From IMG/VR virus record IMGVR_UViG_3300021197_001608, positions 1 to 20,964 of that record: DNA of 20,964 nt, one strand, 5' to 3'. The translations under genes and the position numbers were made by a program. Origin of the DNA: a virus. Below the pieces are notes generated by a model. It was given only the letters and a program-made list of their open reading frames with translations. It did no database searches and was not told where the DNA came from. Numbering within the stretch: the first letter of the stretch is position 1; each line of letters begins with the position of its first letter. Below, in pieces: positions 3,416 through 18,839 of the stretch.

Positions 3416-4129
3416 ATGCCATTACCAACAATTGAAGTCCCCAAGTATAAAGTAAAAATCCCCTCCACGGGAAAGATGATTACATATCGTCCCTTTCTAG
3501 TGAAAGAAGAAAAAGTTCTTCTACAAGCACTTGAAACAGGAGAAGGAGAAGAACAATTACTTGAGGCAATTTTTCAACTTCTCGATAATTGCATCGAGAC
3601 AAAAAATGTAAATCCCCGTGAATTGACAAACTTCGATATGGAATATTTGTTTCTTCAACTAAGAGCAAAGTCTGTAGGAGAAACAGCAGAATTACAATTC
3701 ACATGTTCAAACAAAGAATGCAGAAAACCAATTCAATATGAATGCAACCTATCTGATTTGAAAGTTAAAAGGCACAAGGAACATACGAATAAAATTGAAT
3801 TCACAGAAAACTTGGGCGTGATTATGAAGTATCCGAGTTTACATTCGGCGGTAAAAATTTCATCAAGGAATAACACCGATGAATTGTTTTCATTAATCGC
3901 TGGTTGCATCGAATCGATTTATACAGAAGAGGAAGTTTTTTCAGACAAAGATCATGAACTTGAAGAGTTTGAAGACTTTATTGAACAACTTTCACCAGAA
4001 TACTTTAAGAAGATAATGAATTTTTTTGAAACGATGCCGAGTATGGAAAACGAAATAAAATTAACCTGTCCTTTTTGCAAAGGGGAGGATTCGGTGACAA
4101 TACGAGGAATCGAGGATTTTTTCGGTTAA
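3416..4129 (+). CDS. 26: Tail assembly chaperone / baseplate hub protein, gp26-like
   Basis: The 237-residue product has a strong Shine-Dalgarno (AAAGGAGAA). It looks like the T4 gp26 family (baseplate hub assembly): N-terminal PLPTIEVPKYKVKIPSTGK, helical middle, then a zinc-ribbon-like set of cysteines C97/C102 (CSNKEC) and C218/C221 (CPFC) and the end VTIRGIEDFFG. In the genome order tube-fold protein, this gene, short overlapping frame, tape measure, it sits exactly where tail-assembly chaperone G lies in other long-tailed phages. Such chaperones coat the tape measure until tube polymerisation. The last codons contain the slippery heptamer T TTT TTC at 4117-4123, so a fraction of ribosomes could make a longer -1 fusion. 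Confidence 0.78.
   Translation: MPLPTIEVPKYKVKIPSTGKMITYRPFLVKEEKVLLQALETGEGEEQLLEAIFQLLDNCIETKNVNPRELTNFDMEYLFLQLRAKSVGETAELQFTCSNKECRKPIQYECNLSDLKVKRHKEHTNKIEFTENLGVIMKYPSLHSAVKISSRNNTDELFSLIAGCIESIYTEEEVFSDKDHELEEFEDFIEQLSPEYFKKIMNFFETMPSMENEIKLTCPFCKGEDSVTIRGIEDFFG
4117..4123 (+). promoter_or_regulatory. Candidate programmed -1 ribosomal frameshift site (T TTT TTC)
   Basis: In the gp26 frame the codons are GAT TTT TTC GGT TAA, so bases 4117-4123 read T TTT TTC, a canonical X XXY YYZ slippery heptamer, one sense codon before the stop. Slipping back one base continues with CGG TTA AGT into the downstream frame, which is open to 4317. The fusion would be 236 + 64 = 300 residues. A small imperfect hairpin (GGTTA at 4124-4128 with TAACC at 4143-4147, extendable around a bulged A) follows at once. 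The arrangement is that of the lambda G/GT chaperones. Confidence 0.65.
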
Positions 4130-4149
4130 GTCTCTGCCACACTAACCTG

Positions 4150-4317
4150 ATGTCATATTATCAAATGAACTTTCAAATGATGCAACACCATAAATACAGT
4201 TTGACAGAGATTGAGAATATGATTCCGTGGGAGAGACAGATTTATATTTCACTTCTTCATGATTATATTGAGAAGGAAAACAAAAGAATAGAAGATATGA
4301 AAAACAACAAAGGGTAA
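4150..4317 (+). CDS. Short second chaperone frame (gp51/T-like), probably expressed as a frameshift extension
   Basis: The 55-residue frame from ATG 4150 reads MSYYQMNFQMMQHHKYS followed by LTEIENMIPWERQIYISLLHDYIEKENKRI (residues 18-47). The pattern of a few residues, P-W-E-R, then Y-I-x-L-L and a charged helix is characteristic of the second reading frame of tail chaperone pairs. No convincing Shine-Dalgarno precedes ATG 4150, and the frame is open without interruption back through the end of gp26 in the -1 phase, so I infer it is made mainly as the C-terminal part of the gp26 fusion. In T4 the neighbouring hub-assembly gene is 51, much longer; equivalence in role is inference. The stop lies 3 bases before the tape-measure gene. 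Confidence 0.7.
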   Translation: MSYYQMNFQMMQHHKYSLTEIENMIPWERQIYISLLHDYIEKENKRIEDMKNNKG

Positions 4318-4320
4318 AAA

Positions 4321-6327
4321 ATGGCAACACTTCAACAATCAATGCAATCCATGAAAGGTGTAGGAGAAGCACAGAAATATAAACTCGCCTCCTTTCTAGA
4401 GAGAAACCAAATCCGTGGTGCAGTACACATGGATAAGATTTTATATGGAGAAGAAGGATTTGTCACAAGAGCAAAGGCGCTTGACGATAATCTCGATGAT
4501 CACGGCCGAGAGATGATTACAAAAATCACTGATTTGTTTAAGGATTCTATTGGAAAATCTGCTTCTGAAACAAGAGATATTCTCACCAAGATGAAAGTTA
4601 TTCAAAAGACCCTTAAAGGTGCAACAGACGAACAGTCCTCAATAATCCAAGAATTAACAAAAGCGGGAGTTGCGGCACTCCAGTCGCAAGGAAGTCTTTT
4701 CAATGTTGCAAAAGATGTTATCGGGGGGAGACTTAGGGGTTTTGCCGGAAAACAACTTATGAAGATTCCCGGTGCAGGTATTACTAGTGCTATTTTTTCC
4801 GAAAGAAAGAGAAGAAAAGGAATCGCCGCCGATGCCGCTGCCGAGTTTTCGGGAGGTGATACAGGAGAAGAGATTGTAGATAAACTTGACGAAATCGACG
4901 AGAACACCGAACCCAAGAAAGAAGACAAACTCGGAAAACGAGAGTCGATGCTTGAAAGTTTAAGAGGTAAAGTCGGAGGTTTCATGGGTAAACTGTCTGG
5001 TAAGAATAAAGAAGGAGGCGGCCTAGGTGGTATGCTTAGTTCCTTCCTACCAAAACTAATGTTAATCGGACCTGCTCTTCTTGCCTTCGGTGGAATGCTC
5101 GCTGCCGGTGCCTCAGCAACCATAGGATTTTTGATGCCAATTATCGGGGGATTGATGGCGGCAGCACCATTCATTGCAATCGCTGCCGGGGCCGCAGGTT
5201 TAATTATGCTTGCAATGAACTGGGACGAAGTTACTGGTTTCTTAAAAGATTCTCTTGGAATTTCGTCTGATCAAGACGAAGCACTAGAAAAAGCAGATGA
5301 ATCTGCAAACAAAGTGTTGGCCAGAAATGCCGATCAAGGTCCAATGAGAACAAAAGAAGGAAAAGGATTATACCGAAATAGAGATACTGATGAAATTGAA
5401 CAATTTTCTGACGAAGAAATGGCAGCAATGGACTCCACGGGAGACTCTGTTAACTTTACTCCAATTAAAGATGTACAACGAGGAGGAGCATCCTTAAGAT
5501 TCAGACAGGGTGAAGATGCAGATGCACTTCGAGCAGGAACACTTTCGTTCGACGAAGCAAAGGGTGCTGTTGGACGATCAGAACTCAACCGGAAAGAAAA
5601 AGATTACATTGAATTGTTGAGTCAAGTAGTCAGTGCAGACAAAGAATTTAGAAGCGGATATAAAAGAGATATCCTAAACAGTGATAATTGGGAATCTCAA
5701 TTCAACACTTGGGGTGATAGATGGGCAGGAGTATTCAAAAATATTGTGTTTGATATTGAAATGAGAGAACGCATGGGAATGATAACACAAACAGAAGCAG
5801 ACAAACTTTATACAATGAGTCCGTTTTTTGAAAGAGGATGGTCTGCCGATGATTATACTTTTGATCAACCTTGGATGTTATTCGAGACGGTAGGTGAATT
5901 GAACACTCCCGCAGGAACCTTTGAAGGTAAAAACTGGGACAAGGAGGAATTAGACGGTTTGGGATCACCTTGGAAGAGTGATCCTCAAGCAAAATCATTA
6001 TTCCTCCATACTGGTGGTCTTATTAAGAAAAGAAATGTTCCTGCTGTTTTAGATAGAAACGAAGTTGTCGTTCCACTTTCAAATGCTATGGTTCCCCAAG
6101 CAGGAACATTGAGTGAGGGTGCAAAACTTCTCATTCAAACTCTGATGGGGAATGCATTATTCAAAGGAACCGAACCAATGGGCGGTGGAGCAGGAGGAGC
6201 ATCGAATGTAATTGCTCCAATAAACAACTCGGTTGTTTCTCAAACAGATAACATCTTCGCAGGAGCGCCTTTCACGCGAAATACAGAACCATCAATCAGA
6301 GATATGCAGAGACTTTTATATGCATAA
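4321..6327 (+). CDS. Tape measure protein (gp29 role)
   Basis: The 668-residue product starts after AAAGGG. Residues 1-130 are mostly helical. A low-complexity Gly/Lys/Glu region (140-240) leads to a hydrophobic block at 243-300 (for example LIGPALLAFGGMLAAGASA and PFIAIAAGAAGLIMLA) with two or three membrane-like segments, as in tape measures that insert in the host inner membrane. The C-terminus has HTGGLIKKRNVPAVLDRNE then VVVPLS, a motif typical of tape-measure ends. Position directly after the chaperone pair is the classic location. Residue count predicts a tail of roughly 100 nm by the usual 0.15 nm per residue rule. T4 gp29 is 590 residues; direct sequence homology to it was not established. 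Confidence 0.78.
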   Translation: MATLQQSMQSMKGVGEAQKYKLASFLERNQIRGAVHMDKILYGEEGFVTRAKALDDNLDDHGREMITKITDLFKDSIGKSASETRDILTKMKVIQKTLKGATDEQSSIIQELTKAGVAALQSQGSLFNVAKDVIGGRLRGFAGKQLMKIPGAGITSAIFSERKRRKGIAADAAAEFSGGDTGEEIVDKLDEIDENTEPKKEDKLGKRESMLESLRGKVGGFMGKLSGKNKEGGGLGGMLSSFLPKLMLIGPALLAFGGMLAAGASATIGFLMPIIGGLMAAAPFIAIAAGAAGLIMLAMNWDEVTGFLKDSLGISSDQDEALEKADESANKVLARNADQGPMRTKEGKGLYRNRDTDEIEQFSDEEMAAMDSTGDSVNFTPIKDVQRGGASLRFRQGEDADALRAGTLSFDEAKGAVGRSELNRKEKDYIELLSQVVSADKEFRSGYKRDILNSDNWESQFNTWGDRWAGVFKNIVFDIEMRERMGMITQTEADKLYTMSPFFERGWSADDYTFDQPWMLFETVGELNTPAGTFEGKNWDKEELDGLGSPWKSDPQAKSLFLHTGGLIKKRNVPAVLDRNEVVVPLSNAMVPQAGTLSEGAKLLIQTLMGNALFKGTEPMGGGAGGASNVIAPINNSVVSQTDNIFAGAPFTRNTEPSIRDMQRLLYA

Positions 6328-7742: not shown

Positions 7743-10625
7743 ATGCCACAAGACAATACTAATACAAATGATGGAATCGGTTTAGGTGTCACAGGAGCAG
7801 TAGTAGCAACAGACCTCGTATCAATCGACGGGAATACAACTACTCATGTTCAATATGTGAAACTGGGATGGGGAGCAACAGGCGACCAGTTCTATGCTGT
7901 AGGAACCGACACCGGAACAATCGCTACATCCAAACCACTTCCGATTATGATTCGGCACACAGACGGTACTGCTGTCAATGCTGGAAACAACAAATTAGAT
8001 ATCAATCTTGCTGGACATGGTATAACTCTTCATGCTGATATTAGTCATAGGTCCGATGCAGGGGCACTTTATGTACAAGGAACCGCAGGAGCGACTCCTA
8101 TCCATGTAATGGGTGCAAGTGCAAGTGAACCAGTTATAATTCAGGCGACTGGTGGTACTTACAGTTCAACAAATCCACAATACACACTCCCAACAATGCT
8201 CTTTGGTCTTTCTGGTGGTAACTCTGCCGCTCCTGTCGGTGTTACTAAAGATAGACTACTCGTAAATCACCCAGATAATGTAACCATCATTTCAGATGGT
8301 AGTCAGACATATGTTCAAGCAACTGGTGGATTTACTTTATCCAGATTGAATCCATTAAACACCCTACCTGCCGTATTGTTCGGTGTAACACATGGGGGTG
8401 GTATTGCACCACTTGGTGTAACGGGACGAGGAGCATCAGGAGGTAGATTGCTTGTTGATTTAGACGGCGAAACAATTCCTGTTTCTCTGGTTCTTGGTGG
8501 TAGTGCTGGTATCGATGGTACAGATACTATGCCTACATATCTCTACGGTGAATCTGGACCTTCAGCGGCACCAATCGGAATTTCAGGACCACATAATAAA
8601 CACAGACTACTTGTTGACCTTGCAGGCGAAAGAGTCGCACTAGACGCGGATGCCGCTTCTACTCATTCTGGAATCTTTGTTCGGGGAACAGGTGGATTCA
8701 CTGGTTCTACCGCAGAAGCATCATCAATTCTAAGAACCCAACCCACAATACTCTTTGGTGTTACTGCCGCAGGTGGTATCGAACCAATCCAGTCATCCAA
8801 TGGACATCTTAAGGTTGAAGTCGGTGCTGCCACTTGTATCACTTTCGATGTGAGTGTCAACCCGAATGTTGGTGTCTGGGCAGCAACAGCAGATGGAGGA
8901 CTACACAACCGATATGTACAGATGTCCGGTGTTACTAGTACCGCATTCAAACACGAAGAACTACACCCAGTATTCGTTACTGGTAAAGCAGATGGTTCGA
9001 CATACTCATACCCAGTCGGTATTACCACATCAATGGTTGGTGCATCTGGTGGTGCATGGCAACTACATGTAACTGCCGACAATATAGCAGTTACTAAATT
9101 CACTCCAACCGTAACCGTTCAAGCAACAGCCCTTAATATTCGACGCCTTACTGGAACCGGCGCACTCGGTGCGAAAGACTTGGTTGAAGTAGTCGGTGGT
9201 AGTGGAGACGGTCCAGTATTCATTCGAGCAACTGGAGGTCTTGGACATAAGAACATCCCAGTACACAACACGATACCTTCAATAATTTATGGTGTCACTG
9301 GTGCAGCAGGTGCATCAGGTGGAGAATCCGCAGGTGCAGTAGGTATTACTGGTGCGGACATGCTTCATGTTGGTATCGGACACCCAGTTGCAATTGATGC
9401 ATCTAAGACAAATCCATTGCGTACACAAGCAACGGGTGGATTGAGTGCAGGTTCTGGAAACAATGCAAGACTTCCTCTCACTGTAACAGTTCCATCTCTT
9501 GTCTTGGGACTCTCTGCCGGTTCTGATACGCGAGGCGCGCCTGTTGGTATGTCTGCCGACGCAATTAAAGTCTATGACATACACGGAAGAAGTGCAGGGC
9601 GAGATACAGTTTCCGTGTTCGGTGGAGTTGATGCTTCACATGGTGCAGGTGACGCAGGTGGAACATACAACATTCCTTGGGTTCCAACACTATTGATGGG
9701 TTGCTCTGGTGCATCCGCCGCAGGTGTAGGAATGTCAGGAGATGCAATTAATGTCAACATGGTAAACGCAGGTATTACTGTGGATGTTACTATAGGAACA
9801 AGCATCGAAGTCAGTAATGACAGCGGTGGACCACTTTACATTGGAGGTGCATCTGGTGCATCTGGTGCCGAAGGATTGCTTCCAGTCACAGTCGCAGGAG
9901 ACTTCTTAGGAAACGCATTAAACTGCGGTGGTTCTGCGGGAATGATTCCTTTTGAAGTTAGAGGATTCTCTGGTGCTGCCCGAGACATTGGTATAATTCC
10001 AGTTGGTGTTTCGAGTGGAAACAACTGGAGAATGGCATCAGATGCAAACTTAGATTCTCTTGGACTTACACTTGATAAGACATTCAAGATGTTTATCGCC
10101 GCTCTCGGTGGTGATGTGAATGACGATGATATCGGAGCAAATCAATTTGCATCTAAAGCACAGATGGATGCAATGTCACCAAACGCAGATGCTTCCACAA
10201 ACAGAATTGCAAACGCAGCAGACATGTCTGCTGCCAAGGGATTCCTTGAAACAATTGCAGGTTCAGTTACTTCTGAACCGGGACAAGATGTTGAAAATGG
10301 AAAACAATTGCAGGTTGATATCATTGATGTTCTTCAACCAAGTGGATTTACTAGTGGACAACAAGCACTTGTTAATGGATCTGCAACACGAATTCAAACC
10401 ATAGCAAACGCCGCACAAGGATTCACTCTAGAAAGTGGTATAAAACTTAAAGGACACCAAGATAACACTAACTTTGTTTATGTCGGTGGCGCTGATGTGA
10501 ACTCAGAACGGGGGTTCCCTCTTGGACCATCAGAGGAAATATTCCTTGAAATTGACAACCTGAGTAAACTATATGCAATTAGTTCTACTTCGTCTGGTCA
10601 GTTAATATGTTACATTGGTTCCTAA
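7743..10625 (+). CDS. Large repetitive virion protein (960 aa), probable fibre or decoration protein
   Basis: Starts at ATG after AGGAGAG. Residues about 130-760 consist of eight or nine imperfect units of 50-65 residues with the pattern V-x-A-T-G-G, spacer, P-x-x-L-F-G-V-T/S-G-G, A-A-P-V-G-V-T, then a hydrophobic strand such as LLVDL; examples start near residues 134, 190, 250, 312, 494, 560 and 624. They are rich in Gly, Ala, Thr and Ser and should be beta-structured. Residues 885-960 form a distinct C-terminal domain (NTNFVYVGGADVNSERGFPL, then EEIFLEIDNLSKLYAISS) seen in many phage structural proteins. A virion surface or tail fibre role is inferred from composition and operon with the next gene. 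I do not recognise a named family. Confidence 0.75.
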   Translation: MPQDNTNTNDGIGLGVTGAVVATDLVSIDGNTTTHVQYVKLGWGATGDQFYAVGTDTGTIATSKPLPIMIRHTDGTAVNAGNNKLDINLAGHGITLHADISHRSDAGALYVQGTAGATPIHVMGASASEPVIIQATGGTYSSTNPQYTLPTMLFGLSGGNSAAPVGVTKDRLLVNHPDNVTIISDGSQTYVQATGGFTLSRLNPLNTLPAVLFGVTHGGGIAPLGVTGRGASGGRLLVDLDGETIPVSLVLGGSAGIDGTDTMPTYLYGESGPSAAPIGISGPHNKHRLLVDLAGERVALDADAASTHSGIFVRGTGGFTGSTAEASSILRTQPTILFGVTAAGGIEPIQSSNGHLKVEVGAATCITFDVSVNPNVGVWAATADGGLHNRYVQMSGVTSTAFKHEELHPVFVTGKADGSTYSYPVGITTSMVGASGGAWQLHVTADNIAVTKFTPTVTVQATALNIRRLTGTGALGAKDLVEVVGGSGDGPVFIRATGGLGHKNIPVHNTIPSIIYGVTGAAGASGGESAGAVGITGADMLHVGIGHPVAIDASKTNPLRTQATGGLSAGSGNNARLPLTVTVPSLVLGLSAGSDTRGAPVGMSADAIKVYDIHGRSAGRDTVSVFGGVDASHGAGDAGGTYNIPWVPTLLMGCSGASAAGVGMSGDAINVNMVNAGITVDVTIGTSIEVSNDSGGPLYIGGASGASGAEGLLPVTVAGDFLGNALNCGGSAGMIPFEVRGFSGAARDIGIIPVGVSSGNNWRMASDANLDSLGLTLDKTFKMFIAALGGDVNDDDIGANQFASKAQMDAMSPNADASTNRIANAADMSAAKGFLETIAGSVTSEPGQDVENGKQLQVDIIDVLQPSGFTSGQQALVNGSATRIQTIANAAQGFTLESGIKLKGHQDNTNFVYVGGADVNSERGFPLGPSEEIFLEIDNLSKLYAISSTSSGQLICYIGS

Positions 10626-10647: not shown

Positions 10648-13551
10648 ATGGCAAGAAACGATATCTCCAATCGAGTTAGGGATTCTATACATAAGAACTA
10701 TGAGTTCAAAGATGTCCCCAGTCTCATAACCGGCGCATTTAATGATTTAAAAGATACATTCATATTCAACCAAAGTTGGTGGTTGAGGGATAGAGTTCAT
10801 GAATACAGCATGTCGAATAGTGGCAATAATCGATATGATGATGTTGGTTTATGGTTTAAATATTTAGATCCTGCTAGAAATGATGGTGTAACATCAGGTC
10901 ATAGTCACACAATTCCAGAGAAAAGAGCAGAACTTGTTCTTGGATTGTTAAATGCGATAGGAAGATTGCCCGATAGAGATGTGAATACGGATGAAGGTTG
11001 TTCTAATCAAAACCCCACAGACCAATCAAAAATACCAAACACATGTATACCCGACGATCTTTCTTTACAGAAACATATTTGGGATCCAACGAACTGGAAT
11101 GCTGGTAATGATACTCCCGGTCATCCTAACATGAATACATCTTCCTGGCCGGATGATTTAAGAAAACCAAACTGGATGCACAATCAACCACCTGCATTCG
11201 AGAGAACTCCATTTAGACCGGTATTTAATATTGATTTTAGGGACGATGCAAAATCTGCTGTTCCTGCTGGTGGATTTCTTAAACAAGCACACTTAACATT
11301 GACTGTAAGTCAACAATCTATCGCATGGCCAAGAGAAGGTTATAAAGCAGAGTTTTGGAAACTCATTGATGATTGTGACGAAACATGTGATTGGTTTTAT
11401 AAAAAACGACCAAAACTAGGAGGTGGTCTTATGACCACCAGTTCACTGAGACTCAAAACGGATCTAGATGGAAATACCCTTGGAAGTTGGTTGAATGTGT
11501 TGACAAGTCAACCAGACGGTTTTGGTAGTGGACCTATAACGGGTATCACCACTTCGGCACATTGGTTACCCTCACCCCATCATCCATCACTCGCACCAAA
11601 CAGCAAATGGTTATTTACATCGGACTATGACTCAGATAGGGATGGTTTCTGGAAACGATTGAACGGCGACGAGTTAGGTGGGTGGGTGTATGATCCTATT
11701 GATGATTCGAAACTCCGATGCGGTTCTCGTATATGGATAGAACATAATAGTATTATATGGCCAACAATAGATACAAGATATCCATTCGCAGGAAAGGTGA
11801 GCGTTCCAAAATGTAGAACGGTTGCTATTCCAACAGAATATACCGCAACTAGTTCAAATCAACCAATTCACCAATGGCTCAACCAATGGAACGGTCAATC
11901 AATCAAGATAATGGACTCTTGGAATTTCCTCAAAAGGGCACCAGAAACGGGAGGACTTACAGGATGTGGGGGTGCTGTTGACATCGAAGAAGCAGGATTT
12001 GTTGGTTCTGATCAAGTATATAATAACAATCTTAATGAAGAGGAATGGTATGACTATGATGGTACTTTGAAAGTAAATCCTATTGGGTCAATACAACCAT
12101 TAACAGAATTTAGACCGATGAGAAAAGAAAACTGTAGAGAAATTCACATTCCTAAATTTACGAATGCAGGATACACCGGAAGTTATTACGATTTAACTAC
12201 TCCCTCTTCATCGTATGGGTATGCTACTGGTCCAAGTGGACCAGCAGATGGTAGAGGAATTACATTCTCGGTAGACTTAGGTTGGTGGGGAAGAAACGCA
12301 ATTGCATTTAGTGATCAAAAATTAAATCTTATTCTGAAAGGTGAATACAACAATCTAGGCGACAAAGATCCCAATTCGAAGTTTGAATCAGCAAAAGCAT
12401 TTGTAGAAATACCAACACCAAATCAACACCTTGGTACACAACCTCTTAGTCCCTTTTCTAGTCCATTCTCTGGAAACCCCGGAAACTCCAATTCCACTGA
12501 TACTGTTGTAAATCAAGATCCTGCTCTCCCTCTAACCGGAACCGGGGCATATCCTCAAACATGGGCAGTAAACGCAGGACAAATTGCAACCAACTTTTAT
12601 TCAGTGGAAAGTCCTGCACCTTTCACAAATGACTCATTATGGTTCAGATCAAAAGGAAGCATTCTGGATATAGAATTTGGAAATATGCCAATGCAGGTAA
12701 GTTGTTTCAATAGTGTTACATCTCCACAAATACCTTATGATCAAGTAAAAATAGATTGGAATACATCAGGACCTGGATTCGAAGGAGAAGATTTACGCAG
12801 AAGAGCATTGAACTTTGTTAATACTCTAAGTGAAACTGATACTTTTGAATTTACACAGGGTGCAGAGATCAGTGCAGGTCTTGGTGATCACACAACCACT
12901 GGGTATGTTTATAAAATTTCCCCCGGATCAGTGACAGTAATAGATAATCCTGGTCAGGGTAGTGTTACATTTGGAGTAACAGGTGATCAAAGATTGTTCC
13001 CAACTCTTAATAATAACATAGGACCACATGATATTTCTGAGAGAATGACAGGAAGACATAGTATTATCACCGACGATGAACATTGGATTGTGTCGAGTTC
13101 TGCATGGACAAGTTCATTCCCTACCTACACACAAAAACAGGAACCAGCACCAAAAGAAATTTATCCAAGTCTGGAAGAACTTACAGAAGATGATGACATC
13201 CTGAAAGACATATTCTCTCCACACCCGTCTGGTGGTTATTATCCTACTGGTCCTGATTTTGTGCCTATCGTGGGAATGAACGGAGGAATCACTGGTGGTG
13301 GAGGTTCGTTTATTAAACTGAAACGACTTTTTGAAGATTCCCCCAATAATGGTTCCTATACTGTATTGGATGTGTGGAAAAAGGATGAAGTTAATTCAAT
13401 TACTAGAGAATATGTCAGAGTAAAGGAACCTCTATCTGTTGAGCAACATCCAGACACAGGTCAGGGATTACCATTCTCTATCGAAAGAGTTGATCATCAC
13501 CCAAGAATAGAACTAGTGTATCGAACCAAAGAGCAATACGATACTCCTTAG
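10648..13551 (+). CDS. Large virion-type protein of unknown function (967 aa)
   Basis: Starts 22 bases after the repeat protein's stop, at an ATG with AGAGG upstream, so the two are co-transcribed. The sequence is rich in Trp, Asn, Pro, Gly and Asp with few charged helices (for example NQSWWLRDRVHEYSM near 41-55 and EKHIW/DPTNWNAGND-like segments near 145-160), no signal peptide and no membrane segment, as expected for an extracellular beta-rich particle protein. I recognise no catalytic motif. The equal size and pairing with the preceding repeat protein suggest both belong to one appendage or to the head surface. It is the last plus-strand gene; a hairpin follows it. Confidence 0.7.
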   Translation: MARNDISNRVRDSIHKNYEFKDVPSLITGAFNDLKDTFIFNQSWWLRDRVHEYSMSNSGNNRYDDVGLWFKYLDPARNDGVTSGHSHTIPEKRAELVLGLLNAIGRLPDRDVNTDEGCSNQNPTDQSKIPNTCIPDDLSLQKHIWDPTNWNAGNDTPGHPNMNTSSWPDDLRKPNWMHNQPPAFERTPFRPVFNIDFRDDAKSAVPAGGFLKQAHLTLTVSQQSIAWPREGYKAEFWKLIDDCDETCDWFYKKRPKLGGGLMTTSSLRLKTDLDGNTLGSWLNVLTSQPDGFGSGPITGITTSAHWLPSPHHPSLAPNSKWLFTSDYDSDRDGFWKRLNGDELGGWVYDPIDDSKLRCGSRIWIEHNSIIWPTIDTRYPFAGKVSVPKCRTVAIPTEYTATSSNQPIHQWLNQWNGQSIKIMDSWNFLKRAPETGGLTGCGGAVDIEEAGFVGSDQVYNNNLNEEEWYDYDGTLKVNPIGSIQPLTEFRPMRKENCREIHIPKFTNAGYTGSYYDLTTPSSSYGYATGPSGPADGRGITFSVDLGWWGRNAIAFSDQKLNLILKGEYNNLGDKDPNSKFESAKAFVEIPTPNQHLGTQPLSPFSSPFSGNPGNSNSTDTVVNQDPALPLTGTGAYPQTWAVNAGQIATNFYSVESPAPFTNDSLWFRSKGSILDIEFGNMPMQVSCFNSVTSPQIPYDQVKIDWNTSGPGFEGEDLRRRALNFVNTLSETDTFEFTQGAEISAGLGDHTTTGYVYKISPGSVTVIDNPGQGSVTFGVTGDQRLFPTLNNNIGPHDISERMTGRHSIITDDEHWIVSSSAWTSSFPTYTQKQEPAPKEIYPSLEELTEDDDILKDIFSPHPSGGYYPTGPDFVPIVGMNGGITGGGGSFIKLKRLFEDSPNNGSYTVLDVWKKDEVNSITREYVRVKEPLSVEQHPDTGQGLPFSIERVDHHPRIELVYRTKEQYDTP

Positions 13552-13749: not shown

Positions 13750-13822
13750 TACGACCGGTGGGATTCGAACCCACACTGTATGGATTTTAAGTCCACTGCC
13801 TCTGCCGTTGGGCTACGGTCGC
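13750..13822 (-). tRNA. tRNA with Leu anticodon UAA, short variable loop
   Basis: Cloverleaf on the minus strand: acceptor GCGACCG/CGGTCGT, D-stem GCC/GGC, anticodon stem GTGGA/TCCAT with loop CTTAAAA (anticodon UAA), variable loop of only five bases ACAGT, T-arm GTGGG-TTCGAAT-CCCAC, discriminator A73, no encoded CCA. The anticodon reads UUA (Leu). Bacterial tRNA-Leu is normally class II with a long variable arm, so this class I form is unusual. Its first ten bases overlap the end of the deaminase-like gene. Confidence 0.88.
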
Positions 13823-14187
13823 TCAAGAAGTTTTATTCCTTCGTTTGTAGTATACCATATATCATCGAACAATGCAACACACCAAGGTAAACAAACACAA
13901 CATGGTTTGCTCATTCGCATATCACTGAAACGATTGAACCGATAATTAATCAATTTCAGATTATCTTTTGGTCCTCTATAACGAAGAAGTGCATCCAATT
14001 CTGAATGCACTTCGTCAAATCTATATCCATACTTCTTTGCCAGCGGGTGCGTGCGAAAGTTGTTCGTACCCACCGAAACAATTTCGTTCTTACGAACGAT
14101 AATAGACACATGCTTCTTCGGACGAGGAATGTCCAATGAAACTGGAAGAGCAACATCAGTAAGTTTGTGAATCTTCGTTGGAGTCAT
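13813..14187 (-). CDS. Small cytidine/deoxycytidylate deaminase-fold protein
   Basis: The 124-residue product shows the zinc-dependent deaminase pattern: an N-terminal sheet (HVSIIVRKNEIVSVGTN, 26-42), H61-S-E63 in VHSELDAL, and P95-C96-C97-V98-C99 in MSKPCCVCLPWC. H61, C96 and C99 would bind zinc and E63 act as proton shuttle. This fold includes dCMP deaminase (T4 cd, 193 residues), so a role in pyrimidine nucleotide supply is likely, but the protein is short and the substrate cannot be read from the sequence. I chose ATG 14187 because an upstream in-frame start would lie inside tRNA-Gly. No strong Shine-Dalgarno is visible. The stop codon TAG lies inside the tRNA-Leu gene, at its bases 8-10. 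Confidence 0.7.
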   Translation of the reverse strand: MTPTKIHKLTDVALPVSLDIPRPKKHVSIIVRKNEIVSVGTNNFRTHPLAKKYGYRFDEVHSELDALLRYRGPKDNLKLINYRFNRFSDMRMSKPCCVCLPWCVALFDDIWYTTNEGIKLLERP

Positions 14188-14193
14188 AACAAA

Positions 14194-14265
14194 AGCGCCT
14201 GAACGGACTCGAACCGTCAACATTTTGCTTGGAAGGCAAACACTCTACCATTGAGTTACAGGCGC
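14194..14265 (-). tRNA. tRNA-Gly (anticodon UCC)
   Basis: Acceptor GCGCCTG/CAGGCGC, D-arm ACTC-GAGT, anticodon stem TTTGC/GCAAA with loop CTTCCAA (anticodon UCC, reads GGA), T-arm GACGG-TTCGAGT-CCGTT, discriminator T, no encoded CCA. It lies 6 bases upstream of the deaminase start and shares its acceptor arm with the tRNA-Arg gene at 14517. Confidence 0.95.
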
Positions 14266-14271
14266 AGAAAC

Positions 14272-14424
14272 CTACACCTTTTCAACGGTAAATTTCGAAC
14301 CACCTCTTCGAGCAATCAATCTGGGTGCAGAATAAATAGCACCCCACTTCTCTGCTTCCTCTCTAGAATCAAAGACTAACCTTACCGGATAACCTTTTTG
14401 ATTTGTGTATGTGAGTTTGTACAT
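14272..14424 (-). CDS. Small protein, 50 aa, unknown function
   Basis: ATG 14424 has AAAGGAAA 6-8 bases upstream and the frame closes with TAG just 6 bases before tRNA-Gly. The protein begins MYKLTYTNQKGYPVRLVFDS, continues REEAEKWGAIYSAPRLIARR and ends GGSKFTVEKV: a beta-helix-beta layout with an aromatic-charged helix, like many small phage host-interaction proteins. I do not recognise a family. It fits exactly between two tRNA genes, which supports it being real. Confidence 0.65.
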   Translation of the reverse strand: MYKLTYTNQKGYPVRLVFDSREEAEKWGAIYSAPRLIARRGGSKFTVEKV

Positions 14425-14439
14425 AACAATTTCCTTTCA

Positions 14440-14513
14440 TCAGAGTGACAGGATTTGAACCTGCGACCTTTGCGTCCCAAACGCAACGCACTACCAAACT
14501 GTGCTACACTCTG
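14440..14513 (-). tRNA. tRNA-Pro (anticodon UGG)
   Basis: Acceptor CAGAGTG/CACTCTG with the C1-G72 pair typical of tRNA-Pro, D-arm GCAC-GTGC, anticodon stem TTGCG/CGCAA with loop TTTGGGA (anticodon UGG, reads CCA), variable loop AGGTC, T-arm GCAGG-TTCAAAT-CCTGT, discriminator A, no encoded CCA. Confidence 0.95.
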
Positions 14514-14516
14514 CAA

Positions 14517-14590
14517 CACGCCTGGATGGACTCGAACCATCAACTTGCGGCTTAGAAGGCCGCTACTCTATCCAATTGAGTTACAGGCGC
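14517..14590 (-). tRNA. tRNA-Arg (anticodon UCU)
   Basis: Acceptor GCGCCTG/CAGGCGT, D-arm ACTC-GAGT, anticodon stem GCGGC/GCCGC with loop CTTCTAA (anticodon UCU, reads AGA), T-arm GATGG-TTCGAGT-CCATC, discriminator G. Its 5' and 3' ends are nearly identical to the tRNA-Gly gene about 250 bases away, suggesting the two arose by duplication or recombination. Confidence 0.95.
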
Positions 14591-14596
14591 TGAGTA

Positions 14597-14728
14597 TCAC
14601 CTGATTTTTCTACCACTACCACTTTTTGCTGTTCGAGCAGGAGTGTTCCCCTTCTTCTTTTTAGAAGAGCGGGGAGAACCTACTTTAATTCGATTCGTAA
14701 TTGATGGGTCGTGTCCACTTTTTGCCAT
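14597..14728 (-). CDS. Small basic protein, 43 aa, unknown function
   Basis: ATG 14728 with AGGAA upstream opens a frame reading MAKSGHDPSITNRIKVGSPR, a lysine run KKKK near residue 23-26, and ARTAKSGSGRKIR at the end. It is strongly positively charged and Ser/Gly-rich, so probably disordered and nucleic-acid-binding. It closes 7 bases before tRNA-Arg and follows the 120-residue gene in the same direction. No known family recognised; being short and low-complexity, it is less certain than its neighbours. Confidence 0.55.
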   Translation of the reverse strand: MAKSGHDPSITNRIKVGSPRSSKKKKGNTPARTAKSGSGRKIR

Positions 14729-14742
14729 AATTTAAATTCCTA

Positions 14743-15105
14743 TCATTTCTTGAGTGTAAGTTTTGGTTTCTTTCCACCGATGTCTGTAGCGCCACCTCCC
14801 ATTGGACCACCCCCTGCAAGTGCAGGACCTGGTTTAGCAGGAACGAATAGTCCACTACCGAAAGCGGTGCTATATTCATTGAGCAAATCATTCTGTGCAT
14901 CAACAGTGAATACAATGAACTTCTTGTCAATCTTAATAGACTTATCCGCAAGGTCTGCGTATGCTAACCAAGGCATAAGTCCAAGTTGTCCCTGTCCGGT
15001 TGGAATGATAATTGCAGGTTTTCTCAACTCGCAAATATCACCCTCTTCGCTATATGAACAAATGATTTCTTCACCACTTGTAAGTCGAACAATCTTTGTA
15101 CTCAT
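14743..15105 (-). CDS. Sm-like phage protein (120 aa)
   Basis: ATG 15105 has AGAGG 7 bases upstream. The first 60 residues, IVRLTSGEEIICSYSEEGDI followed by ELRKPAIIIPTGQGQLGLMP and WLAYADL, have the small beta-barrel look of Sm-like proteins conserved in T4-like marine phages. Residues 61-88 add KKFIVFTVDAQNDLLNEY; the tail is Gly/Pro-rich (PAKPGPALAGGGPMGGG) and probably flexible. Function is not established; the Sm-like fold suggests RNA or protein-ring binding. The gene upstream (15107-15439) appears to be a diverged paralogue, with one base between its stop codon and this start. Confidence 0.72.
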   Translation of the reverse strand: MSTKIVRLTSGEEIICSYSEEGDICELRKPAIIIPTGQGQLGLMPWLAYADLADKSIKIDKKFIVFTVDAQNDLLNEYSTAFGSGLFVPAKPGPALAGGGPMGGGATDIGGKKPKLTLKK

Positions 15106-15106
15106 A

Positions 15107-15439
15107 TCAAACCTCTACTGTTTCTGGAGTCTCTTCATTCGAAGTGACAGTTGCTTCCTTTGTCTCTTCGACGAACACACCGATGTACTCTTCGATGAGA
15201 CCATCAGTTGGAGTGTAAATCAAATCAACATTTGCAATAGGAACCTGAACTTCGGTATCTCTTGCTCCCATGCGAAGCATTGGGTTCATGTTAATTCTCT
15301 CGTTCTCTGTATCGTTCTCAAGCATAACAGGGTTACTAATGGAGAGAAAATCATTATCAATGCCGTTGTATTGACAAACAGCACTCACCCCATTATTAAA
15401 CGCAATCATTCTCACATCATTATTCTTCTTCTTAGCCAT
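15107..15439 (-). CDS. Sm-like phage protein, likely paralogue of the next gene (110 aa)
   Basis: ATG 15439 is preceded by AAGGAGA with a 7-base gap and is preferred over an upstream in-frame start at 15577. Residues 9-45 (VRMIAFNNGVSAVCQYNGID then FLSISNPVMLE) parallel the start of the 120-residue neighbour (IVRLTSGEEIICSYSEEG...LRKPAIII), including the short strand-turn-strand and the hydrophobic-Pro step, so I infer common ancestry. The C-terminal third is acidic (VEETKEATVTSNEETPETVEV spans the end). Such paired Sm-like proteins could form a hetero-ring; no function is shown. Confidence 0.68.
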   Translation of the reverse strand: MAKKKNNDVRMIAFNNGVSAVCQYNGIDNDFLSISNPVMLENDTENERINMNPMLRMGARDTEVQVPIANVDLIYTPTDGLIEEYIGVFVEETKEATVTSNEETPETVEV

Positions 15440-15581
15440 TTTTAGTCTCCTTGTTGTTTTTAGACTTTGAATTTTGTTTTGGTTTCTTTTTTCCGAAGGC
15501 CTTTTCCCAACCTTCTTCCCATTTTTTATGGTCGATGGGACGGTATCTGTCACCCTTCCCCGCACCATGTTTATCACTCAT
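15432..15581 (-). CDS. Small conserved phage protein, 49 aa
   Basis: First gene after the promoter at 15602. ATG 15581 has GGAGA 7 bases upstream and the frame ends 8 bases inside the next gene, showing coupling. The N-terminus MSDKHGAGKGDRYRPIDHKK followed by WEEGWEKAFG matches a small family common in T4-like phages, recognisable by G-K-G-D-x-x-R-P-x-D and a following W...W helix; the C-terminus is lysine-rich. The role is unknown. Confidence 0.75.
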   Translation of the reverse strand: MSDKHGAGKGDRYRPIDHKKWEEGWEKAFGKKKPKQNSKSKNNKETKNG

Positions 15582-15601
15582 CTTCATTCTCCATTTCACT
15601 A

Positions 15602-15629
15602 ATTATACAATATGTATACACGATGTCAA
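15602..15629 (-). promoter_or_regulatory. Consensus sigma70 promoter for the small-gene/tRNA operon
   Basis: Minus strand: perfect TTGACA (15629-15624), 16-base spacer, perfect TATAAT (15607-15602). It lies just after the tmRNA terminator and about 15 bases before the start of the 49-residue gene, so it should drive the run down to tRNA-Leu at 13750. Confidence 0.88.
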
Positions 15630-15646
15630 GAGGTTTATTTTCAGAT

Positions 15647-15681
15647 AAAAAGAAAACCCCCACATCTCTGCAAGGGTTTTC
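15647..15681 (-). terminator. Intrinsic terminator of the tmRNA gene
   Basis: Minus strand: GAAAACCC (15681-15674) pairs with GGGTTTTC (15659-15652) around a 14-base loop and is followed by TTTTT (15651-15647). It ends the tmRNA transcript and insulates it from the next promoter. Confidence 0.85.
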
Positions 15682-15734
15682 ATTAGGAACCCGTTCTGTT
15701 GACAAGTGGGTTAGTCTCCGCTTTGTGATTTACA

Positions 15735-15761
15735 TCACGCTGCAAGGGCAAAGTTGTTTGC
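15735..15761 (-). other. tmRNA tag reading frame: ANNFALAA
   Basis: Codons GCA AAC AAC TTT GCC CTT GCA GCG TGA give A-N-N-F-A-L-A-A-stop, with the ALAA end recognised by ClpXP-type proteases. If the resume codon is the preceding GGC, as the A four bases before it would suit, the tag is GANNFALAA. The start codon choice cannot be decided from sequence alone. Confidence 0.9.
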
Positions 15762-15858
15762 GCCGTTTGAAATTTACAACCATGATTGTCAAGTAGGTTG
15801 TCTCCTTGGGTATCTTCTTCTTTGTTACTCATTACCAAATCGATTCCGTTTCGCCCCC

Positions 15859-15933
15859 ATCAGAGACACCCTCGTAGCGTATAAAGTTTCTAATTAATCG
15901 TATCTGTTCTTAAATTTTAAACGAGGGTGCCTC
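15859..15933 (-). other. Intervening segment of the permuted tmRNA precursor
   Basis: These 75 bases lie between the CCA end (15934) and the mature 5' end (15858). Their ends form a 13-base stem with one G-U (15921-15933 with 15863-15875) stacked, across an ACCA/TGAT internal loop, on the tmRNA acceptor stem. The result is one long helix that processing enzymes would cut to release two RNA pieces, as in known permuted tmRNAs. The loop (15876-15920) is A/T-rich. Confidence 0.8.
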
Positions 15934-16131
15934 TGGTGGAGGCGGGGAGATTCGAACTCCCGTGTTCAGCAATTTTTACTCCGATATCAACAATACCAGT
16001 TTATTTATAAACAGTGTATGCTCCGCGTGTATCCCTTGCACACCTAGCAGAATCCCTACCCTTTCTGCTCCTGATATAATTATCCAGTAGGGAGGTAGCG
16101 TTAATTTAATAACTGCTTGCCCCCCTACTGG

Positions 16132-16408
16132 GTTGTTCGTGGACGGGAAGGATTAACATTTACCTTCAACTTTCAGGGTCATCTAGTTTGATTATTCCCT
16201 ACTCGCACTACGCTTGAGTCAGTTAAACTCTGCTACACTCATTTGAGCATTCACACCCCACTACAGGGAACCGCATACATTATTCTCAATAACAAAAAAC
16301 ATTCTGTCACCGTCCTATGCGGGAGTAATTAATTCCCACATATGTTATTCACTTGTCATAGAAAACGCTCGAATGGGGTTTCCCCCATCCAAGCAGAGAG
16401 AAACGGAA
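16132..16408 (-). other. Structured non-coding stretch upstream of the tmRNA
   Basis: No convincing gene is present. Several stems can be drawn: TTCCCT/AGGGAA (16195-16200 with 16265-16270) enclosing 64 bases with small inner stems, CCGCATA/TATGCGG (minus sense) over about 40 bases, and ATGGGG-GAAA-CCCCAT (16373-16388), a GNRA-capped hairpin just after the helix-turn-helix gene that may be its terminator. The remainder may be tmRNA leader, promoter or another small RNA. I could not identify a clear promoter. Confidence 0.45.
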
Positions 16409-16666
16409 TCAGCAGATTCCAGCACGGATGGCGTGTGGGTTATCCATATAACCGTGGAACTCCATTCCGTAAGAGGTCTTACCACTGGGGGTCTCATCGG
16501 TGTAGACGCTCCAGTTACCGTATGCTTCAACCTGCGACTTGATGTTGCTGATGGTTGCTCGCATGTTACCGACACCGAAACGACTTCGTGCCTGACTTGG
16601 GGTAAGCGTTCCACCCTTTGCAAGAAAATCCATGACTCGACGCTTCTTTGAAACTGTGTTGTTCAT
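16409..16666 (-). CDS. Small helix-turn-helix DNA-binding protein (85 aa)
   Basis: ATG 16666 follows GGAG with 8 bases. Residues 8-45 (KRRVMDFLAKGGTLTPSQAR then SRFGVGNMRATISNIKSQV) give a winged-helix/HTH pattern in which TPSQARSRFGVG is the first helix and turn and NMRATISNIK the recognition helix. Residues 48-70 look like a wing (YGNWSVYTDETPSGKTSYGM). This type of small HTH protein is common in T4-like phages and is thought to regulate transcription. The promoter in front contains a perfect operator-like palindrome, so autoregulation is plausible. It is followed by a GNRA hairpin. Confidence 0.78.
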   Translation of the reverse strand: MNNTVSKKRRVMDFLAKGGTLTPSQARSRFGVGNMRATISNIKSQVEAYGNWSVYTDETPSGKTSYGMEFHGYMDNPHAIRAGIC

Positions 16667-16687
16667 ATTATGAACTCCTAAACTAAT

Positions 16688-16732
16688 GCGACTCTAAGTA
16701 AGAAAGGGTTAGATACTCGTCGCAGTCGTATC
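16688..16732 (-). promoter_or_regulatory. Leader with two competing hairpins ahead of the HTH gene
   Basis: Plus coordinates: GCGACTCTAA (16688-16697) can pair with TTAGA (16709-16713) and GTCGC (16719-16723) with a bulge, while GATAC (16712-16716) can pair with GTATC (16728-16732). The two folds share bases 16712-16713 and 16716 region, so they exclude each other. An attenuator role is speculation. Confidence 0.3.
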
Positions 16733-16755
16733 CGTTCCCTGATTGTTATACAAGT

Positions 16756-16784
16756 ATTGTACTACACCATTTGGTGTTTGTCAA
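16756..16784 (-). promoter_or_regulatory. Sigma70 promoter with an operator-like palindrome in the spacer
   Basis: Minus strand: perfect TTGACA (16784-16779), 17-base spacer and TACAAT (16761-16756). Inside the spacer lies the perfect inverted repeat ACACCA-AA-TGGTGT (16764-16777), positioned where a bound repressor would block polymerase. The -35 box overlaps the stop codon of the upstream 82-residue gene. It drives the HTH gene, the obvious candidate ligand. Confidence 0.75.
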
Positions 16785-17029
16785 CCCTTTTGCTGAACAA
16801 AATCGTAAATCTTTTCTGCCTGTTCGAGAATTTGTTCGTGTGTTGGAAACTGTGGTCGAACTTTGACCGAACAGGTGGCAGTTACACTTGCACCTTCCGC
16901 CTCTTGTTCTCGTTTCCATTCATTAAAACTTTGCCATTCACTGGTGTCTTGATAGAACTTATCCATCAATCGGTCCTTGGCTGTGTTGTAAATATCGTAA
17001 CGCAATTCATATGGGTTTTTGTTTGACAT
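16781..17029 (-). CDS. Conserved small phage protein (82 aa), unknown function
   Basis: ATG 17029 follows AAAGGAGA with a 6-base gap. The N-terminus MSNKNPYELRYDIYNTAKDR leads into a helical segment (LMDKFYQDTSEWQSFNEWKR), a short beta stretch and a final helix FPTHEQILEQAEKIYDFVQQ. The NPYELR...N.AKD and YPT/FPT-x-E-x-I-L-x-x-A-E elements recur in a small hypothetical family of T4-like cyanophages and relatives. No function is known to me. The gene ends at the promoter of the HTH gene and begins 37 bases downstream of tRNA-Lys. Confidence 0.75.
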   Translation of the reverse strand: MSNKNPYELRYDIYNTAKDRLMDKFYQDTSEWQSFNEWKREQEAEGASVTATCSVKVRPQFPTHEQILEQAEKIYDFVQQKG

Positions 17030-17065
17030 GTGTGTCTCCTTTTGTGTGTTGTCAAAAATCCAAAA

Positions 17066-17138
17066 TGGGTCAGGCGGGACTCGAACCCGCGACGAACGGT
17101 TTAAAAGACCGCTACTCTACCAACTGAGTTACTGACCC
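17066..17138 (-). tRNA. tRNA-Lys (anticodon UUU)
   Basis: Acceptor GGGTCAG/CTGACCC, D-arm ACTC-GAGT, anticodon stem GCGGT/ACCGT with loop CTTTTAA (anticodon UUU, reads AAA), T-arm GCGGG-TTCGAGT-CCCGC, discriminator A, no encoded CCA. An inverted copy of its first eight bases lies 3 bases upstream of its 5' end. Confidence 0.95.
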
Positions 17139-17149
17139 TGTGGGTCAGT
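17131..17149. repeat. Inverted repeat at the tRNA-Lys 5' end
   Basis: ACTGACCC (17131-17138) and GGGTCAGT (17142-17149) are exact inverted copies separated by TGT. One arm is the first eight bases of tRNA-Lys, the other includes the stop codon of the DUF4406 gene. The precursor could form a hairpin competing with the tRNA acceptor stem; it may be a processing signal or a trace of tRNA insertion. Confidence 0.6.
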
Positions 17150-17537
17150 GTTTGTCTTTGTCTGGTAACGGTGCTTCGTAGTAGATATCCAAACCTACTG
17201 CTTTTGCTGTATGCCATTCTGCTCTTGCACCTCGACTGTTTTCCCAACCGGACATCATGTACATTGCAGTACAAACATCACAGATGGCAACCAAGTCTCT
17301 CTTAAGTGCTTCTCGCATAAATTCACGGTCTTCATAATCAGTGGCGGGATCAAACTCCAAGTGACCGTTTGGTGGTTCACCTTCTTGTCTGTCCATCTCC
17401 GCAGGATTGATTACTGACCAACCTTGAGTTTCAAGAACCTTTGCTTGGCGGTCAAAGGCAGGAAAGTTTCCATCCTCATAACCTCGCATCGGTCCTGCGA
17501 TATAAATTGTTGGTTGTCTATCTACACTCATTTTCAT
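17145..17537 (-). CDS. DUF4406 protein (nucleoside deoxyribosyltransferase-like fold)
   Basis: The 130-residue product has the DUF4406 signature: TIYIAGPMRGYEDGNFPAFD (10-29), then AKVLETQGWSVINPAEMDRQ (32-51), REFMREALKRDLVAICDVCT (71-90), AMYMMSGWENSRGARAEWHT (91-110) and AKAVGLDIYYE. This family resembles nucleoside 2-deoxyribosyltransferases and is frequent in phages; a nucleotide-related function is inferred only from the fold, and no product is known. Start is either ATG 17537 (MKMSVDRQ) or ATG 17531; no strong Shine-Dalgarno distinguishes them. It overlaps the end of the membrane protein gene upstream by 14-20 bases, so translation is probably coupled. Confidence 0.85.
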   Translation of the reverse strand: MKMSVDRQPTIYIAGPMRGYEDGNFPAFDRQAKVLETQGWSVINPAEMDRQEGEPPNGHLEFDPATDYEDREFMREALKRDLVAICDVCTAMYMMSGWENSRGARAEWHTAKAVGLDIYYEAPLPDKDKH

Positions 17538-17715
17538 GCCTGATTAGTCTGTCCAAATCTCTCTGAATAATTCCAGAAAGATTGGCGTTTGCTTGTCGAA
17601 GACTCTCGTTATCCTTTGAAAGTCTCTTAATTGATTCTCTATATTCTACACCACGGAATATGGAATACAAGCAAAAAGTCAAAAGAATAGTAAAAACTAC
17701 TAAAATTACTTCCAT
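17518..17715 (-). CDS. Small single-pass membrane protein with coiled coil (65 aa)
   Basis: ATG 17715 overlaps the guaC stop codon (TGATG) and has GGAG 8 bases upstream, so I prefer it to a longer frame reaching 17772. Residues 1-20 ([20 protein letters not shown]) form one membrane helix; residues 24-62 are a charged heptad-like helix (RESIKRLSKDNESLRQANAN then LSGIIQRDLDRLI). Topology resembles an inner-membrane spanin or other small anchor, but no lysis genes are adjacent and I do not assign it. Co-transcribed with guaC and DUF4406. Confidence 0.68.
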   Translation of the reverse strand: MEVILVVFTILLTFCLYSIFRGVEYRESIKRLSKDNESLRQANANLSGIIQRDLDRLIRHENECR

Positions 17716-18752
17716 CAAGAATCTCCAAACACAGTATTCAACTGGCGATTTACTCGAACAAAGGTCGTACACTTTGGAAGTTGCTTGAGTTTCCTTGCAC
17801 CTGTGTATGTACAGGCACTTCGGACACCACCCATGATGTCCTGTAGAGTATTCTCAACAGGTCCTCGATATGGCACCTGCACTGTCTTACCCTCAGACGC
17901 TTTGTAAGTCGCTACACCACCACTGTGTTTGTCCATTGCGGTGGTACTAGACATACCGTAGAACACCTTGTGAGACGCTCCAGAATCGTCTGTGACGAGT
18001 TCTCCTGCACACTCTTCGTGTCCAGCGAGCATTCCCCCTAGCATAACGAAGTCCGCACCTGCACCGAAGGCCTTTGCGACATCACCGGAGGATTGACACC
18101 CTCCATCCGCCATGATGAACCCGTCCAGTCCGTGTGCGGCGTCGGCGCATTCGATTACTGCGGACAGTTGAGGATACCCAACCCCCGCTACTTTCCTCGT
18201 TGTACATACACTGCCGGGTCCGATGCCAATCTTTACAATATCCGCTCCTGCAAGAATCAGTGCTTCCGTCATCTCCGCTGTCACTACATTCCCGGCGATT
18301 AGAACTTTGCTTGGCCATGCTTCTCGAACCTCCTCGACAAAATCAATAAACTTCTGTGAATATCCATTTGCAACATCTAGACAGAAGAAATCAAAGTTAA
18401 TACTAAATTCTGGTGCGAACGCATCAGTCAGTAACATCTCTTTGTCTTGTAGACCGAAAGAAAGAGCCATACTGTTTTTTTCTTTAGCAGTAAGTTCTGA
18501 GTATTTATATGGTTCGTCTTGATGTTTACTTAAACAAGTCAGCATATCATGGGAAGCAAGAACTCTGCCCATGTCAATTGTTCCTGTTGTGTCCATATTT
18601 GCGGCGACAATTGGAACACCAGTCCAAACTCTACCACATGGAAACTGAAATTTCCTTGTAAGGTCTACTTCTTTTCTTGAAGCGAGAGTAGAACGCTTCG
18701 GTCGAATCAATACATCACTATAATCAAGTTTCGTATCTTCAGCAATCTTCAT
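17715..18752 (-). CDS. guaC: GMP reductase
   Basis: The 345-residue product is close in length to E. coli GuaC (347) and keeps the whole IMPDH/GMPR barrel pattern: [13 protein letters not shown] (9-21), [13 protein letters not shown] (46-58), the active-site loop [20 protein letters not shown] with Cys183 and Thr185, [34 protein letters not shown] and [17 protein letters not shown]. No CBS domains are inserted, which together with FYGMSS separates it from IMP dehydrogenase. It reduces GMP to IMP with NADPH, returning guanine nucleotides to the purine pool. ATG 18752 has AGGAGA 6 bases upstream. It lies directly after tRNA-Ile and overlaps the membrane protein gene. A GMP reductase in a phage is uncommon and likely an acquired metabolic gene. 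Confidence 0.95.
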
Positions 18753-18766
18753 AATAAATCTCCTAA

Positions 18767-18839
18767 TGAGCCGAGGGGGACTCGAACCCCCGAATATACC
18801 GTTATAAGCGGTACTGCTAATGCCATCCGCGTCCGGCCC
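18767..18839 (-). tRNA. tRNA-Ile (anticodon UAU)
   Basis: Acceptor GGGCCGG/TCGGCTC (two G-U pairs), a weak D-arm GCGG...TAGC, anticodon stem TACCG/CGGTA with loop CTTATAA (anticodon UAU, reads AUA), T-arm GGGGG-TTCGAGT-CCCCC, discriminator A, no encoded CCA. Most bacteria read AUA with a CAU anticodon modified to lysidine, so UAU is unusual. Confidence 0.85.

Follow-up and report, generated by a model that had tools for sequence, protein, structure and literature searches.

The window studied here, i.e., the whole stretch of DNA that was analyzed, is a 20,964-base virus record of a T4-like myophage. Genes for head closure, a DNA end protector and the tail tube (the last matching PHROG 45, E = 2.8e-31) are followed by a gp26-like gene on the plus strand (positions 3416-4129; 237 aa) and then by a 668-aa ORF at the place of the tape measure gene (plus strand, 4321-6327). 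The gp26-like ORF matched the Pfam family T4_baseplate above the cut-off (E = 1.7e-64) and PHROG 150, the gp26 family (E = 1.1e-68), and it has a Shine-Dalgarno (SD) sequence with an anti-SD duplex of -8.7 kcal/mol; from these features and its predicted fold, we assign the gene to the short form of a tail assembly chaperone (TAC-N). The 668-aa ORF has its own SD sequence (-4.5 kcal/mol) and adjoins, on its upstream side, the -1 reading frame described below. It matched the tape measure family PHROG 58 with an E value of only 0.62; therefore, its assignment as a putative tape measure gene rests on synteny. The gp26-like pair of the window lies between the genes of the tail tube and (by position and length) the tape measure protein, and in Caulobacter phage Cr30 the annotated tape measure gene is also found shortly downstream of the gp26/gp51 pair. 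The best gp26 identity to any relative found was about 46%, and by sequence comparison the source phage is a deep-branching environmental member of the T4-like chaperone group. A scan of viral_contigs with the single gp26 protein of the window gave no matches; therefore, alignments were used instead.

The AlphaFold model of the gp26-like protein has a pLDDT of 93.9. Its residues 1-96 matched the HK97 tail assembly chaperone 2ob9 with a Z score of 7.7; further matches were 3fgx and 3klu (both 7.4) and 5ir0 (5.6), compared to 2.6 and below for unrelated chains. Since the highest Z score is just under 8, the model supports, without proving it, a tail-assembly-chaperone-like fold for residues 1-96 of TAC-N. 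A sequence search of the same protein against solved structures found no relative.

The gp26-like ORF ends with GAG GAT TTT TTC GGT TAA. The slippery heptamer T TTT TTC (4117-4123, plus strand) has the phase of a canonical X XXY YYZ site, which two tRNAs require for slipping one base backward, and only one codon (GGT) separates it from the zero-frame stop codon TAA (4127-4129). The -1 frame is free of stop codons from the slip site to the TAA at 4315-4317 (plus strand, 4117-4317). Its product, FFRLSLCHTNLMSYYQMNFQMMQHHKYSLTEIENMIPWERQIY..., comprises 66 codons counted from the slip site and corresponds to a gp51-like C-terminal domain (TAC-C) of a putative long form, with EDFFRLSL as the fused junction peptide. 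The original prediction had named the heptamer one codon before the gp26 stop, the -1 frame open through the following gene, the interval 4100-4317 and the junction peptide, and all of these proved correct. The second frame (4147-4314) matched PHROG 634, the baseplate hub assembly catalyst (E = 1e-23). It also matched the C end of PHROG 150 (E = 1.5e-6), so that the model of this family already spans the gp51-like domain. Alignments obtained with tblastn for the second frame begin at the stop codon, upstream of the first ATG (4150).

We scanned all ORFs of at least 60 aa on both strands of the window for X XXY YYZ sites. Among the 57 sites found inside ORFs, 4117-4123 alone combines a nearby stop codon (within 40 nt) with a long -1 extension (at least 40 codons past the stop). 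An SD sequence is missing at every tested start codon of the second frame (anti-SD duplexes from -0.7 to +1.0 kcal/mol), which agrees with the earlier claim that the second gene lacks a good one, whereas most genes neighboring this frame do have an SD sequence.

The comparison with relatives provides the main evidence. In the pooled set, an in-frame T TTT TTN was found within the last few codons of 277 of the 282 unique gp26 ends, the last base being C in 237, T in 34 and A in 6 ends. It should be noted that the first 80 loci were found by a query that included the two Phe residues and could have favored T-runs; therefore, the search was redone with gp26-only queries. With such a query, from which the junction was excluded, T TTT TT[CT] was found at the same place in 78 of 78 contigs containing the gp26 stop. 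The carriers of the heptamer include Kyanoviridae, Caulobacter phage Cr30, Sinorhizobium phage phiM7, Aeromonas phage Ah1, Cronobacter phage LPCS28, Vibrio phage QD01, Stenotrophomonas phage YB07 and Agrobacterium phage OLIVR5. The -1 frame stays open in each of the 270 complete cases (55-82 codons, none under 55). The original prediction had named as refutations that relatives would lack the heptamer or carry stops in the -1 frame; the comparison tested both, and neither refutation came about. The comparison of gp26 ends that it had proposed is thus strongly positive.

Conservation of the protein alone does not explain the conservation of the heptamer. Elsewhere in gp26, FF dipeptides are coded by T-TTT-TT[CT] in just 17 of 291 cases. 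The codon preceding the junction FF ends with T in 277 of 277 ends, compared to an expected 64%; site finding itself required T at this position, though only 5 of the 282 ends failed. The preceding codon, the Phe codons and an SD-like GGAGGG upstream of them are all conserved at the synonymous level, and by this codon comparison the heptamer is conserved beyond the protein constraint.

The canonical heptamer is absent from five of the 282 gp26 ends, which belong to the T4 group, a Kuttervirus and three Vibrio phages. Kuttervirus STML-13-1 and the three Vibrio phages (L095, L096, L097 and L008) have a run of CTTTT or ATTTT immediately upstream of the gp26 stop, and their -1 frame is open after this stop; with both the T-run and the open frame kept, these phages may slip elsewhere. 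Phage JS09, which represents the T4 group, has no heptamer; its gp51 is encoded by a single ORF of its own that comprises an N domain and a C domain. The C profile matched residues 200-245 of JS09 gp51 (E = 1e-8, two sequences searched), and the N profile gave a weaker match in two short stretches (E = 1.7e-9). Since N and C are joined in one ORF in JS09, two routes, frameshifting in the phage studied here and a second, fused gene in the T4 group, seem from these profile matches to give the same pair of products. The 2022 abstract by Vladimirov et al. is said to describe frameshifting as conserved in several T4-like groups, with the T4 group using genes 26 and 51.

If the -1 frame were instead a separate gp51 gene, translated from an ATG past the gp26 stop through re-initiation or translational coupling, the T-run would simply reflect two Phe codons. 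This is how many cyanophage relatives are annotated, their ATG following the stop by two bases, and the window has an ATG at 4150; however, this ATG is located 20 nt beyond the stop and has no SD sequence. Moreover, codons 3-13 of the -1 frame contain no ATG in 113 of 273 relatives and none of ATG, GTG and TTG in 71 of 273. The residues that precede the start codons are conserved (R3 in 205, H8 in 224 and L11 in 265 of 273), and the fixation of the FF codons and of the preceding third base at the synonymous level also argues against this explanation, which we regard as very improbable. We infer that the -1 frame is read from the slip site rather than from an internal start. A combined scheme, in which frameshifting yields the long form (TAC-NC) and an internal start adds some free C-terminal domain, is somewhat less improbable, although still unlikely for this phage: none of the tested internal starts in the window has an SD sequence. 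In its favor are Cr30 and phiM7, which carry a T-run slip site together with a TGATG stop-start overlap (L006, 1890-1905, and L007, 1890-1908, respectively) and in which both routes may operate. The two frames could also be a product of chance or of sequencing errors, given that the assembly of T-runs is error-prone; however, the same run and the same frame relation recur in hundreds of contigs and in isolate genomes, and this conservation refutes an artefact, the chance of which is negligible.

Taken together, the comparative evidence makes it highly probable that the tail assembly chaperone encoded at this locus is produced in a short and a long form by -1 frameshifting; from this evidence we infer the slippage itself, its rate and the chaperone role. 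Most ribosomes would terminate at TAA 4127 and produce TAC-N (the gp26-like protein of 237 aa). In a minority, the tRNA-Phe pair on T TTT TTC would slip back one base into the -1 frame, and the predicted TAC-NC would consist of gp26 up to FF followed by about 64 residues of the gp51-like domain, with its end at 4315. An SD-like element upstream and an RNA structure downstream probably increase the frameshift rate. By analogy with gpG/gpGT of phage lambda, TAC-N would coat the tape measure protein and TAC-NC would recruit tail tube subunits. Both the joining of the two frames by a frameshift and the lambda analogy, which were the core of the original prediction, are supported by the comparative evidence.

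The candidate upstream stimulator in the window is the SD-like CGAGGAA (4103-4109, plus strand), located about 8 nt before the heptamer. It is a weaker match than the GGAGGG of the relatives, which is found at nearly the same place, about 10 nt upstream of the heptamer. Most relatives have GAGG/GGAG at -15/-14, and the Glu codon in the SD-like stretch is GAG in 180 of 228 cases, compared to 24 of 121 for other Glu-Gly pairs of gp26. A generic SD score for the 23 nt before the heptamer was not separable from that of synonymous shuffles (0.957 versus 0.928), whereas the more specific comparison of Glu codons did show a separation. Downstream, most relatives have an RNA hairpin that begins about 6 nt past the heptamer and is far more stable than in synonymous shuffles (mean z = -3.22, n = 149; control stretches, -0.10 and -0.79). 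The hairpin is built from differing sequences, for example, in S-PM2 (L002), L021 and L067, and the shuffling test indicates that it is under selection in the relatives.

The window has no counterpart of the strong hairpin that most relatives form locally (z = -0.23), and this phage may use a long-range stem. RNA folding suggested a candidate stem with a 5' arm at 4129-4139 and a 3' arm at 4202-4212 (plus strand), in which bases immediately past the stop pair with SLTEIE-coding bases about 65-75 nt downstream. The duplex has a z score of -3.58 compared to synonymous shuffles (0 of 150 shuffles), and in a whole-fold test the value was 7 of 300 shuffles. Similar pairing in the same register was found in L104, L109, L249, L308 and L356. 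It should be noted that good pair counts were obtained for 15 sequences picked for strong pairing, a choice that biases the count. For all 87 hairpin-less sequences, mean long-range pairing did not exceed that of shuffles (p = 0.20); in the tail of this set, 8 sequences have at least 9 of 10 pairs compared to 2.6 expected (p = 0.002, kinship ignored). On the tree, long-range pairing has 7 changes, and independent pairs give no test power. Thus, the long-range stem as a general class is weakly supported by these comparisons. That it is the stimulator in this phage and in several scattered hairpin-less relatives, i.e., a second stimulator design combined with one conserved slippery site, is a tentative proposal that we consider less probable than its opposite.

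Several other features of the window were recorded. A permuted (two-piece) tmRNA gene with the tag GANNFALAA was predicted by ARAGORN on the minus strand (15644-16026) and matched Rfam RF04321 with 65.9 bits (gathering score 47); two-piece tmRNAs have been described in marine phages, e.g., Melnitz (PMC9004378). On the minus strand, 13750-18839 contains six phage tRNA genes (Leu, Gly, Pro, Arg, Lys and Ile) and a 345-aa ORF (17715-18752) that by eye resembles IMP dehydrogenase/GMP reductase. On the plus strand, a very long ORF (7743-10625; 960 aa) looks repetitive by eye, and a 967-aa ORF (10648-13551) has no significant match in Pfam or PHROG.

The original prediction doubted that such a mechanism had been described for gp26/gp51, and here it was wrong. 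Vladimirov, Gautam and Davidson (2022, Virology 566:9-15, doi 10.1016/j.virol.2021.11.003) identified T4-like gp26 and gp51 as a tail assembly chaperone pair. PMC10885494 cites this study for T4-like phages in which the short form and the fused long form have separate genes, and PMC12846349 credits it with poly-T slippery sequences in T4-like TAC-N genes. The mechanism is already published for this pair, and the locus is a well-supported further example. Going by PMC12846349, it shares with the T4-like TAC-N/TAC-NC system the pair itself, the place before the tape measure gene and the poly-T -1 site near the end of TAC-N; the differences are that this phage is deep-branching and lacks the local hairpin that most of them have. 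The few hundred, mostly environmental sequences confirm that frameshifting is probably how the chaperone is made in many T4-like groups other than the T4 group itself; therefore, genes listed in many records as "gp26" and "gp51" ought to be annotated as a single joined product. One heptamer with varying stimulators also makes this large natural set useful for working out what determines the frameshift rate.

As in lambda gpG/gpGT, a short form and a minor frameshifted long form, with slippage here predicted, are encoded directly before the tape measure gene. The lambda slippery site is G GGA AAG, compared to T TTT TTC here. Xu, Hendrix and Duda reportedly found in 2004 that the frameshift is conserved in dsDNA phage tail genes. 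The predicted N-domain fold resembles the HK97 chaperone 2ob9; a difference from the lambda system (for the gpG/gpGT-type frameshift of dsDNA phage tail genes, see PMC10885494) is that this protein has no sequence relative among solved structures. A poly-T site at the TAC-N end also serves for -1 frameshifting in the TAC of Vandenendeviridae/Andersonviridae, although with the motif GTTTTT and in another phage group (PMC12846349). T4 gp26/gp51, as represented by JS09, has homologous N and C parts but no heptamer, and its gp51 is a separate full gene with both N and C. The relatives of this phage also resemble E. coli dnaX, in which the -1 site is flanked by an internal SD-like element (about 10 nt 5') and a hairpin (3'); the dnaX heptamer is A AAA AAG, and the shift there shortens the product, whereas here it would lengthen it.
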